Below are positions 45,845 to 48,731 of a stretch of DNA of 64,000 nucleotides, piece after piece. Location of the stretch: assembly GCF_013112485.1 (NCBI RefSeq), contig NZ_JABFHG010000006.1, forward strand, positions 186,001 to 250,000. Direction: 5' to 3'. How positions within the stretch are numbered: the first letter of the stretch is position 1; each line of letters begins with the position of its first letter. The translations under genes were made by a program, and so were the position numbers. The stretch is from Roseicella sp. DB1501. GTDB taxonomy: Bacteria > Pseudomonadota > Alphaproteobacteria > Acetobacterales > Acetobacteraceae. The notes beneath the pieces were generated by a model, which worked only from the letters and a program-made list of their open reading frames with translations, had not been told where the DNA came from and made no database searches.

Positions 45845-45878
45845 TTGCCATGCGGCCAAAAAAGAACATATAGTGAAC
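45845..45878 (+). promoter_or_regulatory. SOS promoter: -35/-10 elements overlapped by a LexA box
   Basis: TTGCCA at 45845-45850 and TATAGT at 45869-45874, 18 bases apart, form a good sigma-70-type promoter. GAACATATAGTGAAC at 45864-45878 is GAAC-N7-GAAC, the direct-repeat LexA operator of alphaproteobacteria, and lies across the -10 element. LexA bound here would block RNA polymerase until DNA damage. The downstream gene begins at 45916. Confidence 0.85.
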
Positions 45879-45915
45879 AAATAGCGGGGCCGGCCGCTGC
45901 GGGCCGGATCGATCC

Positions 45916-47172
45916 ATGGAATTGCGCCGCAAGCTCGAGATCCTCGCCGACGCCGCGAAATACGACGCCTCCTGCGCCTCCTCGGGCACCGAGACGCGCG
46001 ACAGCCGCCAGGGCGGGATCGGCAGCACCGAGGGCATGGGCATCTGCCATGCCTATGCGCCGGACGGGCGCTGCATCTCCCTGCTCAAGGTGCTGCTGAC
46101 CAATGCCTGCCAGTTCGACTGCGCCTATTGCATCAACCGCGCCTCCTCGCAGGTGCCGCGCGCCCGCTTCACGGTGCGCGAGCTGGTGACGCTGGTCCTG
46201 CACTTCTACCGCCGCAATTACATCGAGGGGCTGTTCCTCTCCTCCGGCATCATCCGCTCGCCCGACTACACGATGGAGCAGATCACCGAGGTCGCGCGGC
46301 AGCTGCGGGAGGAGCATGGCTTCCGCGGCTACATCCACCTCAAGACCATCCCGGATGCGGCGCCGGAGCTGCTGGCCCGCGCCGGGCAGCTCGCCGACCG
46401 GCTCTCGATCAACATCGAGCTGCCGCAGGATGCCAGCCTGCGGCAGCTCGCGCCCGAGAAGGACGGTCCCGGCATCCGCCGCGCCATGGCCGGGCTGCGA
46501 CTCAGGATCGACGAGGCGCGCGAGGCCGGCCGCGGCGCCGGCCGCGCCGCGCCGCCACGCTTCGCCCCCGCCGGGCAGAGCACGCAGATGATGGTCGGCG
46601 CCGATGCCGCCGACGACCGGGCCGTGCTCGGCACCAGCGCCGGCCTCTACGCCGCCTATGGTCTGCGCCGCGTCTACTACTCGGCCTATTCGCCGATCCC
46701 CGACGCCTCCCGCCGGCTGCCGCCGCAGGCCCCGCCCCTCCTGCGCGAGCACCGGCTCTACCAGGCCGACTGGCTGCTGCGCTTCTACGATTTCGAGCTG
46801 GACGAGATCCTGGCGGGTGGCGAGGGCGGCATGCTCGATCTCGCCCTCGACCCGAAGCTGGCCTGGGCGCTGAAGCATCGCGGGCGGTTCCCCGTGGACG
46901 TCAACCGCGCGCCGCGCGAGATGCTGCTGCGCGTCCCTGGCCTCGGCGCCCGCACGGTGGACCGGCTGCTCTCGACCCGGCGGCAGCGGGCGATCCGCAC
47001 CGACGACCTGGCGCGGCTGCGGCTGCCGCTGGCGAAGCTGCTGCCCTTCCTCGTCACCGCCGATCGGCATCCGCGCGCCGGCCTGCTCGACCGCACCGAT
47101 CTGCGGCAGATGCTGGCGCCGCGGGCCGGCCTGGCCGCGGCGGCGCGGCCGCGCCAGATGGTGCTGCTGTGA
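45916..47172 (+). CDS. putative DNA modification/repair radical SAM protein
   Basis: A 418-residue radical S-adenosylmethionine enzyme of the TIGR03916 type. The 4Fe-4S motif is C-x3-C-x2-C at Cys65, Cys69 and Cys72 (CQFDCAYC). GLFLSSGIIRSPDYTMEQ and LKTIPDA follow in the barrel. The C terminus has a helix-hairpin-helix (LRVPGLGARTVDRLLSTR, about residues 337-354), a DNA-binding element. It is distantly related to spore photoproduct lyase. It shares an SOS promoter and a GTGA overlap with the UdgX fusion gene, pointing to repair of a damaged or modified base. The substrate is unknown. Confidence 0.87.
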   Translation: MELRRKLEILADAAKYDASCASSGTETRDSRQGGIGSTEGMGICHAYAPDGRCISLLKVLLTNACQFDCAYCINRASSQVPRARFTVRELVTLVLHFYRRNYIEGLFLSSGIIRSPDYTMEQITEVARQLREEHGFRGYIHLKTIPDAAPELLARAGQLADRLSINIELPQDASLRQLAPEKDGPGIRRAMAGLRLRIDEAREAGRGAGRAAPPRFAPAGQSTQMMVGADAADDRAVLGTSAGLYAAYGLRRVYYSAYSPIPDASRRLPPQAPPLLREHRLYQADWLLRFYDFELDEILAGGEGGMLDLALDPKLAWALKHRGRFPVDVNRAPREMLLRVPGLGARTVDRLLSTRRQRAIRTDDLARLRLPLAKLLPFLVTADRHPRAGLLDRTDLRQMLAPRAGLAAAARPRQMVLL

Positions 47173-48731
47173 CCGGCGTTTCCGTCACCGGCGAGATCGA
47201 CGCGCCGCTGCCGGGACCGGCCGACTTCGCCGCCTGGCGGGGACAGGCACGCCGCTTCCTCGCCGCCGGCCTGCCGCCGGCGCTCGTGTCCTGGCGGGTC
47301 GCCGGCGAGGCGCCGGGCCTCTTCGCCTCGGCCGCCCCGCCGGAGACGGTGGCGCCCCTCTCGGCCAGCGTCCCGGCCAGCGTGCCCCGCAGCTTTCTCG
47401 AGGCGGCCGAGACCGCCATCCGGCACCGCGACCCGCAGCGCTTCGCCCTGCTCTACCGGCTGCTCTGGCGGCTGGCGCATGACGAGCCGGGTCTGATGCA
47501 GGTGGCGACCGATCCGGATGTCCTGCGCCTCCACGCCATGGCCAAATCCGTGCGGCGCGACGCCCACAAGATGCACGCCTTTGTCCGATTCCGCTGCGTC
47601 GAGATGGCGGACGCGCCGGACGAGGACAGCGGCGCCGATCCGGTCGGCGCGCACTACGTTGCCTGGTTCGAGCCGGAGCATCATATCCTGGAAGCCGAGG
47701 CCGGCTTCTTCATTCGGCGCTTCGCCGGGCTGCGCTGGTCCATCCTGACGCCGGAGGCGAGCGCGCACTGGGACGGCGCCACCCTCCGCATGGGGCCCGG
47801 CGGCACGCGGCGCGAGGCGCCGGCCGAGGATGCGCATGAGGCGCTCTGGCGCGCCTATTACCGCAGCGTCTTCAACCCCGCCCGCCTGAAGCCGGCGGCG
47901 ATGCGGGCGGAGATGCCGGTGAAGTACTGGCGCAACCTGCCGGAGGCGCGCGAGATCCGCGGCCTGATCGCCGATGCGCCGCGGCGCACGGCCGAGATGC
48001 TGGCCCGCGGCGTCTCCGCGCCGATTCTCCGGCGCCAGCGCCCGCCGCCGGCGGCGGTGCAGCCAACCGCCCTCCCGGACGTTGCGGAGACCATGCCAGC
48101 CGATCTCTTCTCCCGCGTCGAAGACCCGGCCGCCGCGCTCGCCGCGCTCCGGGCCGGTCTCATGGGACGCAACGACCTGCCCCCCTGGACGGCGGCCAGC
48201 ACGCAGCCGGTCTTCGGCGAGGGGCCGCTCGGCGCGCCGCTGATGTTCGTCGGCGAGCAGCCGGGTGACGAGGAGGATCTCGCCGGCCGGCCCTTCGTCG
48301 GCCCTGCCGGCCGTCTCTTCGACCGCGCGGCCGCGGAGGCGGGGATCGACCGCAGCGCCACCTACGTCACCAATGCGGTGAAGCATTTCAAGTTCAAGCC
48401 GACCGGCCGGCGCCGCCTGCACCAGTCGCCCGATGCCGGCGACATCACCTACTACCGCCCCTTCCTGAAGCGGGAGATCGAGTTGGTTACGCCGGGCCTC
48501 GTCGTCTCGCTCGGCGCCACGGCGCTGCGGGCGCTGACCGGCAAGCCGCTGCCGATCACCCGGGTGCGCGGCGAGATGATCGAGGCGCCGGAAGGCTTCC
48601 GCATCTTCCCGACCGTGCATCCCTCCTACCTGCTGCGCCTGCCCGACCCGGCCAGCAAGGAGCGCGAATACGCCCGCTTCGTCGCCGACCTGGTCGCGGC
48701 GCGGGAGGCGGCGGATCGTCTCGGCAGCTAG
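47169..48731 (+). CDS. DUF4130 domain-UdgX fusion: uracil-DNA glycosylase family protein
   Basis: A 520-residue two-domain protein. Residues about 60-290 match the DUF4130 (TIGR03915) domain, with KSVRRDAHKMHAFVRFR and FIRRFAGLRWSILTPE. Residues about 320-520 are UdgX, with motif GEQPGDEEDLAGRPFVGPAG, the R-loop GRRRLHQSP with His418, and VHPSYLLR. In mycobacterial UdgX the equivalent His becomes covalently joined to the abasic site after uracil removal. The GTG at 47169 overlaps the radical SAM stop (GTGA); longer frames lack similarity. SOS control and coupling suggest a joint damage-response pathway. Confidence 0.88.
   Translation: MTGVSVTGEIDAPLPGPADFAAWRGQARRFLAAGLPPALVSWRVAGEAPGLFASAAPPETVAPLSASVPASVPRSFLEAAETAIRHRDPQRFALLYRLLWRLAHDEPGLMQVATDPDVLRLHAMAKSVRRDAHKMHAFVRFRCVEMADAPDEDSGADPVGAHYVAWFEPEHHILEAEAGFFIRRFAGLRWSILTPEASAHWDGATLRMGPGGTRREAPAEDAHEALWRAYYRSVFNPARLKPAAMRAEMPVKYWRNLPEAREIRGLIADAPRRTAEMLARGVSAPILRRQRPPPAAVQPTALPDVAETMPADLFSRVEDPAAALAALRAGLMGRNDLPPWTAASTQPVFGEGPLGAPLMFVGEQPGDEEDLAGRPFVGPAGRLFDRAAAEAGIDRSATYVTNAVKHFKFKPTGRRRLHQSPDAGDITYYRPFLKREIELVTPGLVVSLGATALRALTGKPLPITRVRGEMIEAPEGFRIFPTVHPSYLLRLPDPASKEREYARFVADLVAAREAADRLGS

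Follow-up and report, generated by a model that had tools for sequence, protein, structure and literature searches.

SOS control of the gene pair described here is already in print. A COG1573-COG4277 operon, by its description the same pair of a uracil-DNA glycosylase (UDG) and a COG4277 protein behind an SOS-type operator, belongs to SOS-type networks of Bacteroidetes, and the same source cites earlier reports of SOS regulation in Verrucomicrobia and Alphaproteobacteria (PMC8565304; this and all other papers are cited from the parts of their text that were available). LexA control has been inferred for CAC3343-CAC3344 of Clostridium acetobutylicum, where a gene with the same radical S-adenosylmethionine (SAM) product name accompanies a second, uncharacterized gene (PMC3828012), and SOS control of a splB has been predicted in alpha- and beta-Proteobacteria (PMC3323433). 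The domain DUF4130 has been linked to SplB-like radical SAM proteins and UDG (PMC3765255), such a radical-SAM gene is up-regulated on desiccation in Acinetobacter (PMC13130816), and the available part of PMC9611098 merely lists the gene. The glycosylase UdgX of Mycobacterium smegmatis is a 4Fe-4S protein (PMC10359453). In the literature searched, we found no reaction assigned to the pair and nothing that treats UdgX and the radical-SAM protein together. Here we analyze such a pair in a 64,000-nucleotide stretch of Roseicella sp. DB1501 (contig NZ_JABFHG010000006.1, positions 186,001 to 250,000; hereafter the window). It is a real, well-conserved SOS-type repair operon of a known kind that is widespread among bacteria, and its glycosylase is a variant. 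A first-pass annotation had named it the window's best candidate for an undescribed repair system; its SOS control is not new. That annotation passed over two features taken up below, a UdgX without the cysteines of its relatives and three extra invariant cysteines in the radical-SAM protein.

The operon consists of a radical-SAM gene, open reading frame (ORF) 1, and an overlapping gene for a DUF4130-UdgX fusion, ORF2. Its main parts, in window coordinates, are as follows.
45845 to 45874, plus strand: sigma-70-like promoter TTGCCA-N18-TATAGT, matching 10 of 12 consensus positions
45864 to 45878, plus strand: putative LexA operator GAACATATAGTGAAC, of the form GAACN7GAAC, overlapping the -10 element TATAGT (45869-45874)
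45916 to 47172, plus strand: radical-SAM gene (ORF1), 418 amino acids, 542.8 bits against TIGR03916 (cut-off 343.5)
47169 to 47172, plus strand: GTGA start/stop overlap of ORF1 and ORF2, read from the sequence as translational coupling
47169 to 48731, plus strand: DUF4130-UdgX fusion gene (ORF2), 520 amino acids, GTG start, assigned by profile matches
47220 to 47948, plus strand: DUF4130 / TIGR03915 domain, residues 18-260, by profile match
47955 to 48695, plus strand: UdgX / TIGR03914 domain, residues 263-509, by profile match

This arrangement bears out the first-pass annotation, which had described a GTGA-coupled operon of a TIGR03916 protein and a DUF4130-UdgX fusion. All domains exceed their curated cut-offs, with ORF2 scoring 215.2 bits for TIGR03915 (cut-off 112.25), 133.7 for Pfam DUF4130 (cut-off 27) and 268.6 for TIGR03914, the UdgX model (cut-off 189.95). 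At E ≤ 1e-3, ORF1 matches TIGR03916 alone in NCBIfam and Radical_SAM alone in Pfam; we take TIGR03916 to be the family designated COG4277. The GAAC-N7-GAAC box was confirmed over the -10 element, and the promoter is the only promoter-like match between 45300 and 49200 (mean of 0.1 in shuffled sequence).

Significance of the box from counts alone was rejected: the window holds a single exact GAACN7GAAC with 0.38 expected by chance, and the whole 6-Mb genome holds 66 matches as against 45 for the reversed pattern. Position and orthology therefore carry the weight. Of the genomes sampled, 50 of 120 at the family level, 25 of 385 at the class level and 72 of 299 at the phylum level encode a protein over the TIGR03916 cut-off. 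The exact direct repeat lies upstream of 37 of the 50 family loci and 24 of the 25 class loci (two of the 25, L100 and L102, are duplicates), and the reversed pattern is absent from the matches listed for these two groups. A wider set of 199 loci, comprising 80 named loci (the best 80 of 586) and others, was reduced to 192 by dropping 7 duplicates; some alignments used 53 or 54 of those 80 named loci together with the window. Between -120 and +5 of the start, GAACN7GAAC is present in 139 of 155 distinct alphaproteobacterial loci (assigned to this or another class by hand, from the stated organism or kinship), compared with 11 of 7000 background windows, 1 of the 155 loci for the reversed pattern and 0 of 155 for CTGTN8ACAG. 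The window's own 15-mer, GAACATATAGTGAAC, recurs unchanged upstream of 26 alphaproteobacterial loci, the window counted in. A lack of box enrichment at orthologous operons, which the first-pass annotation had set against its own proposal of LexA control, is clearly not what we found.

Within the same genome (loci L012, L013, L029 and L306 hold its own boxes), the motif lies 57 bp ahead of the longest lexA frame, in the interval that separates uvrA from ssb, a short distance ahead of the Met that precedes a UmuD domain with umuC next, and 125 bp ahead of the gene for the ribonucleotide reductase alpha subunit. The alphaproteobacterial LexA motif is given as a GTTCN7GTTC-type sequence (PMC8565304), and the box described here is of this type, stands at a promoter, is conserved among orthologues and is common to lexA and uvrA. 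Because of this comparative evidence across orthologous loci, we consider the box a probable LexA operator, to which LexA would bind.

Loci from other proteobacterial classes carry other boxes. CTGTN8ACAG is found upstream of 18 of 35 such loci (2 of 2020 background windows; 0 of 35 loci for the reversed pattern), GTCTCAN5TGAGAC upstream of 6 and the alphaproteobacterial box upstream of none (0 of 35); among the remaining 11 loci, 8 differ by one mismatch from one of these boxes. One-mismatch boxes were rejected as evidence within Alphaproteobacteria, being present at 8 of the 16 loci without an exact box but also in 423 of 7000 background windows. GAACN4GTTC, presumably the Gram-positive LexA box, occurs in exact form near the start in 2 of 6 distant records, for which no background was computed (two from named Clostridia and four gut contigs that carry a phage label but are, in our view, Firmicutes-like); one match also lies near an alphaproteobacterial locus (L118).

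As a separate observation, Xanthomonadaceae-type loci have the palindrome GTCTCA-N5-TGAGAC in place of the LexA box (L119, L126, L127, L133, L153, L254, L216-L225 and L270-L299). Of 60 genomes from the family to which Xanthomonas G511 belongs, 41 have it and none has the reversed control. Among 40 sites, 10 belong to the radical-SAM gene, 14 to a DEAH-box helicase gene (TIGR03817-like), 1 to uvrA and 1 to recA, and 14 are unassigned. From its placement, the palindrome looks like the operator of a DNA-damage regulon.

UdgX is the less constant part of the operon. Across the 192 distinct loci, 147 carry the DUF4130-UdgX fusion and 36 carry DUF4130 without it; 2 have the two domains but not within a single clean frame, 4 are truncated, and tblastn finds no DUF4130 in 3. 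DUF4130 is detected by tblastn in 189 of 192; two of the negative loci stop at contig ends, and in the third, L226, the domain is divergent, as seen in the sequence of its duplicate, L269. Radical SAM and TIGR03915 alone were found in one Acinetobacter and one [Eubacterium] eligens record (plasmid records alone being examined here). A genome-wide check of 18 of the 36 loci with unfused DUF4130 found no UdgX over the cut-off in 11 genomes and UdgX elsewhere in 7, of which five have their copy joined to a DUF4130-like domain. The sequence after DUF4130 extends for at least 2 kb in 20 of the 36 unfused loci and for less than 2 kb in 16, where an adjacent separate UdgX would escape detection; one unfused locus, L124, is possibly a frameshift. 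UdgX also stands alone, for example in L202. We think, on this distribution, that the core of the system is probably radical SAM plus DUF4130, not UdgX. The link between UdgX and DUF4130 is nevertheless real, despite the loci free of UdgX. The second UdgX copies in genomes with an unfused operon (L196-L200) bear a DUF4130-like domain of their own that is strongly diverged.

Compared with the Bacteroidetes COG1573-COG4277 operon as described in the available text, the operators differ, and here DUF4130 and UdgX form one protein whose UdgX lacks cysteines. UdgX is not mentioned for CAC3343-CAC3344 in the part of PMC3828012 that was available. Three sites define the UdgX domain of the window.
48165 to 48182, plus strand: position of the CxxC cysteines of other UdgX domains, Cys-free here, from alignment
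48405 to 48422, plus strand: R-loop GRRRLH with the crosslinking-type His418, aligned to KRRIH of M. smegmatis UdgX
48453 to 48455, plus strand: Tyr429, replacing the third conserved UdgX cysteine, from alignment

The domain exceeds the TIGR03914 cut-off, has motif A as GEQPG, and retains His418 in the R-loop, as the first-pass annotation had said. In an AlphaFold2 model of the fusion (mean predicted local distance difference test [pLDDT] score 87.2; predicted template modeling [pTM] score 0.56), it matches the M. smegmatis structure 6l6s with Z 28.6 and a root-mean-square deviation (rmsd) of 1.6 over 199 aligned residues. The fold, GEQPG motif and R-loop His are thus common to both proteins, but M. 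smegmatis UdgX (6ail, 6l6s; about 209 residues) has three cysteines and a 4Fe-4S cluster, whereas the window protein is fused to DUF4130 and has no cysteine (PMC10359453). By alignment, the three conserved cysteine columns are cysteines in M. smegmatis UdgX and are probably the ligands of the iron-sulfur (Fe-S) cluster. The window protein has 0 of 3, with no cysteine across the 193-residue region compared, and so lacks the cysteines of a 4Fe-4S UdgX; for this reason, we call it a cluster-less UdgX variant and not a canonical UdgX.

The absence is all or none. Among 148 fused proteins, 15 of them incomplete at their end, all three cysteines are present in 123, all are absent in 25, and none shows partial absence. 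Of the 148, 147 retain the R-loop His (L039 does not), among them all 25 of the cysteine-less class, and 22 of these 25, the window among them, have no cysteine anywhere in the available UdgX region. The fewest changes in cysteine presence on the tree number 3 for both the UdgX and the DUF4130 columns, with gain and loss indistinguishable; the change is presumably one of loss. The cysteine-less class is not mentioned in the UdgX literature consulted, including the available part of PMC10359453, and no wider search was made. A UdgX class that lacks the cysteines and keeps the His is new to us.

The radical-SAM protein is marked by the following sites.
45973 to 46074, plus strand: codons for C20, C44 and C53, additional cysteines present in 192 of 192 distinct loci
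46108 to 46131, plus strand: CX3CX2C radical-SAM motif (C65, C69, C72), within the Pfam Radical_SAM match, 192 of 192
46888 to 47019, plus strand: C-terminal helix-hairpin-helix-like region (LLRVPGLG) with P341/G342 and weak PDB matches

Besides the invariant C65/C69/C72, every one of the 192 proteins has cysteines C20, C44 and C53. The same holds for 8 of the 9 more distant homologues aligned, one of which, L269, is a duplicate of a protein already counted in the 192. The ninth, from Gemmatirosa (L193, 4001-5263), lacks the three N-terminal cysteines, has no adjacent DUF4130 and scores 303.3 bits against the cut-off of 343.5. It is possibly a sister family, and a correlation between cysteines and DUF4130 drawn from this single record has too little to bear it. 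Extra conserved cysteines are a feature of auxiliary-cluster radical-SAM enzymes, and their invariance here suggests an auxiliary Fe-S cluster; we propose that C20, C44 and C53 may be its ligands or may act as hydrogen donors. Lipoyl synthase is an auxiliary-cluster enzyme. In an AlphaFold2 model of the protein (pLDDT 82.3, pTM 0.82), the closest folds among the matches listed are lipoyl synthase (Z 17.2, rmsd 3.5, 231 aligned) and, about level with it, HydE (16.8), followed by biotin synthase (16.1). The radical-SAM fold is shared with these enzymes at Z of about 16-17 over 213-232 residues, but identity is 8-17%, the gene context is different and the helix-hairpin-helix-like tail is found here; a common function is not implied. 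The tail itself had been claimed by the first-pass annotation. Its best PDB sequence matches, ComEA and RuvA, are weak (E 0.04-0.2), and what holds is its conservation, P341/G342 being shared by 191 of 192 loci and G344 by 54 of 54. In spore photoproduct lyase (SPL), a downstream cysteine is the hydrogen donor; 109 of the 192 proteins, window included, have no cysteine downstream of CX3CX2C. No SPL family matched the protein at E ≤ 1e-3 in NCBIfam or Pfam, both of which presumably include an SPL model. SPL is also absent from the 50 structure matches listed, which carries no weight alone.

For DUF4130, comparison of 188 proteobacterial and 8 distant sequences identified F138, R140, F141, P169, F181, R184, I192, W227, R239, P250 and E259 as near-universally kept; none of the residues common to the two sets is a Cys, His, Lys or Asp. 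The domain has no PDB sequence match (best E 0.21), no second Pfam family was convincing, and the listed matches from a structure search of the DUF4130-UdgX model were all taken up by the UDG domain. Its pattern of conservation is consistent with a DNA or lesion binder.

Beyond the operon, conserved neighbors are few. In 80 loci, the widest neighbor family, by our reading an ABC-transporter ATPase, extends to 6 genera, and no repair-related family was recognized by eye among the 12 recurrent neighbors listed. Nine gaps between the two halves were read and held no consistent gene. Fused and unfused loci are not separated by GC content. Single insertions were seen: a hemerythrin-domain ORF follows the radical-SAM gene in L168 (6309-6788, before DUF4130, by Pfam match) and, by eye, in L088, and a cytidine-deaminase-like ORF (Pfam dCMP_cyt_deam_1) lies between radical SAM and DUF4130 in one locus (L157, 6856-7494). 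The operon also occurs on 158 plasmid records, two IMG/VR contigs and 10 records filed as phage. In one of the latter, filed as Acinetobacter phage MD-2021a (L195), the operon lies beside glyS/glyQ, with neighbors as in a plasmid-filed Acinetobacter baumannii record (L190). Because of these matching surroundings, the phage label looks wrong for the operon stretch, which appears to be host DNA.

We favor, tentatively and at slightly less than even confidence, a LexA-repressed SOS operon in which radical SAM and DUF4130 form a lesion-processing core and UdgX is an accessory that is cluster-free in this lineage. The analysis itself establishes the operator site, the operon with its domains and residues, their distribution and the all-or-none cysteine pattern; we infer LexA binding, a lesion, radical chemistry and a division of labor as follows. 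RecA/LexA signaling would relieve the operator, and the radical-SAM enzyme and its constant partner DUF4130 would be made. DUF4130, in which Arg and aromatic residues are kept across phyla, may bind damaged DNA and would not act as an enzyme alone. The radical-SAM protein, with its CX3CX2C motif, helix-hairpin-helix-like tail and probable second cluster at C20/C44/C53, could carry out 5′-deoxyadenosyl-radical chemistry straight on a damaged pyrimidine. The UdgX-type glycosylase, fused in most proteobacterial loci, would excise uracil in the same patch, derived for example from deaminated cytosines with a damage-saturated 5,6 bond or from dUTP mis-insertion, and, by bonding covalently through His418, would shield the resulting apurinic/apyrimidinic (AP) site. 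The UdgX of this lineage would act without an Fe-S cluster. A more specific route strikes us as improbable: an auxiliary-cluster radical-SAM enzyme, to which DUF4130 would present the lesion, would turn a damaged pyrimidine into uracil, or leave a uracil, which the tethered, Fe-S-free UdgX would then excise, protecting the AP site covalently while recombination or resynthesis runs to completion.

Several observations weigh against the favored reading. The exact box is absent from 13 of the 50 family loci, and an Acinetobacter locus (L190) and a divergent proteobacterial locus (L226/L269) have no recognized LexA box. Residues 21-52 of the radical-SAM model, C44 included, have pLDDT below 50, and the model is unable to show a cluster. 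Within Proteobacteria, H133 (187 of 188), D115 (184 of 188) and T194 (187 of 188; all 8 distant sequences have Asp) of DUF4130 are near-invariant, so that a catalytic role for the domain there is still possible. The core pair is apparently present in gut anaerobes, which makes a UV-specific substrate unlikely.

That the radical-SAM protein is an SplB-like photolyase reversing UV dimers, with UdgX clearing deaminated cytosines, seems unlikely. SplB is likewise a radical-SAM protein tied to DNA repair, but the window protein has no SPL model match, its matches at E ≤ 1e-3 being confined to TIGR03916 and Radical_SAM, and shares with 108 others of the 192 the lack of a downstream cysteine. The core pair is moreover present in the gut anaerobe [Eubacterium] eligens. 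Although the partners are termed SplB-like radical SAM photolyases (PMC3765255) and SOS control of a splB was predicted in alpha- and beta-Proteobacteria (PMC3323433), SplB is listed as COG1533, separate from COG4277 (PMC8565304), and the SplB label is weakly founded. The first-pass annotation had instead suggested that the radical-SAM enzyme resolves or processes covalent UdgX-AP-DNA adducts. Fusion of UdgX to DUF4130 in 147 of 192 loci, the His in 147 of 148 fusions and UdgX elsewhere in 7 of 18 unfused-operon genomes, five copies with a DUF4130-like domain, are in its favor, but DUF4130 stands unfused in 36 of 192 loci, 11 of 18 such genomes have no UdgX over the cut-off, and UdgX occurs alone too (L202). 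Operons and genomes free of UdgX thus disfavor its adducts as a general substrate, and we give the proposal little credence.

A similarly doubtful proposal is an auxiliary-cluster radical-SAM enzyme that modifies DNA or inserts sulfur under stress, in the manner of LipA or MiaB, with no lesion repaired. The three extra invariant cysteines and a modeled fold that appears near lipoyl synthase are consistent with it, whereas LexA-type operators shared with repair genes suit repair better, the two-gene operon has no sulfur-carrier gene, and no neighbor family extends to more than 6 genera. We rate slightly lower still a mutagenesis or AP-site tolerance module in which a DUF4130 enzyme aids error-prone synthesis. 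DUF4130 is a predicted mutagenesis-related enzyme (PMC3765255), and LexA control and the near-invariance of H133 and D115 within Proteobacteria point the same way; yet the residues conserved over the 188 and 8 DUF4130 sequences include no Cys, His, Lys or Asp, and no polymerase was recognized by eye among the recurrent neighbor ORFs listed for 80 loci. An anti-phage or mobile-element system is very improbable: the plasmid, IMG/VR and phage-filed records would fit it, but PADLOC gave 0 matches at E ≤ 1e-3, the operon appears to be under LexA control, and the Acinetobacter "phage" record resembles host DNA.

In several lineages, the pair lies behind that lineage's own SOS-type operator, but it has no assigned reaction in the literature searched. 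The analysis narrows the question to a core of radical SAM and DUF4130, with C20, C44 and C53 as the first targets for mutation. A UdgX that has the crosslinking His but no cysteines would probe what the cluster does in UDGs, and it could serve as an oxygen-robust reagent for uracil mapping.

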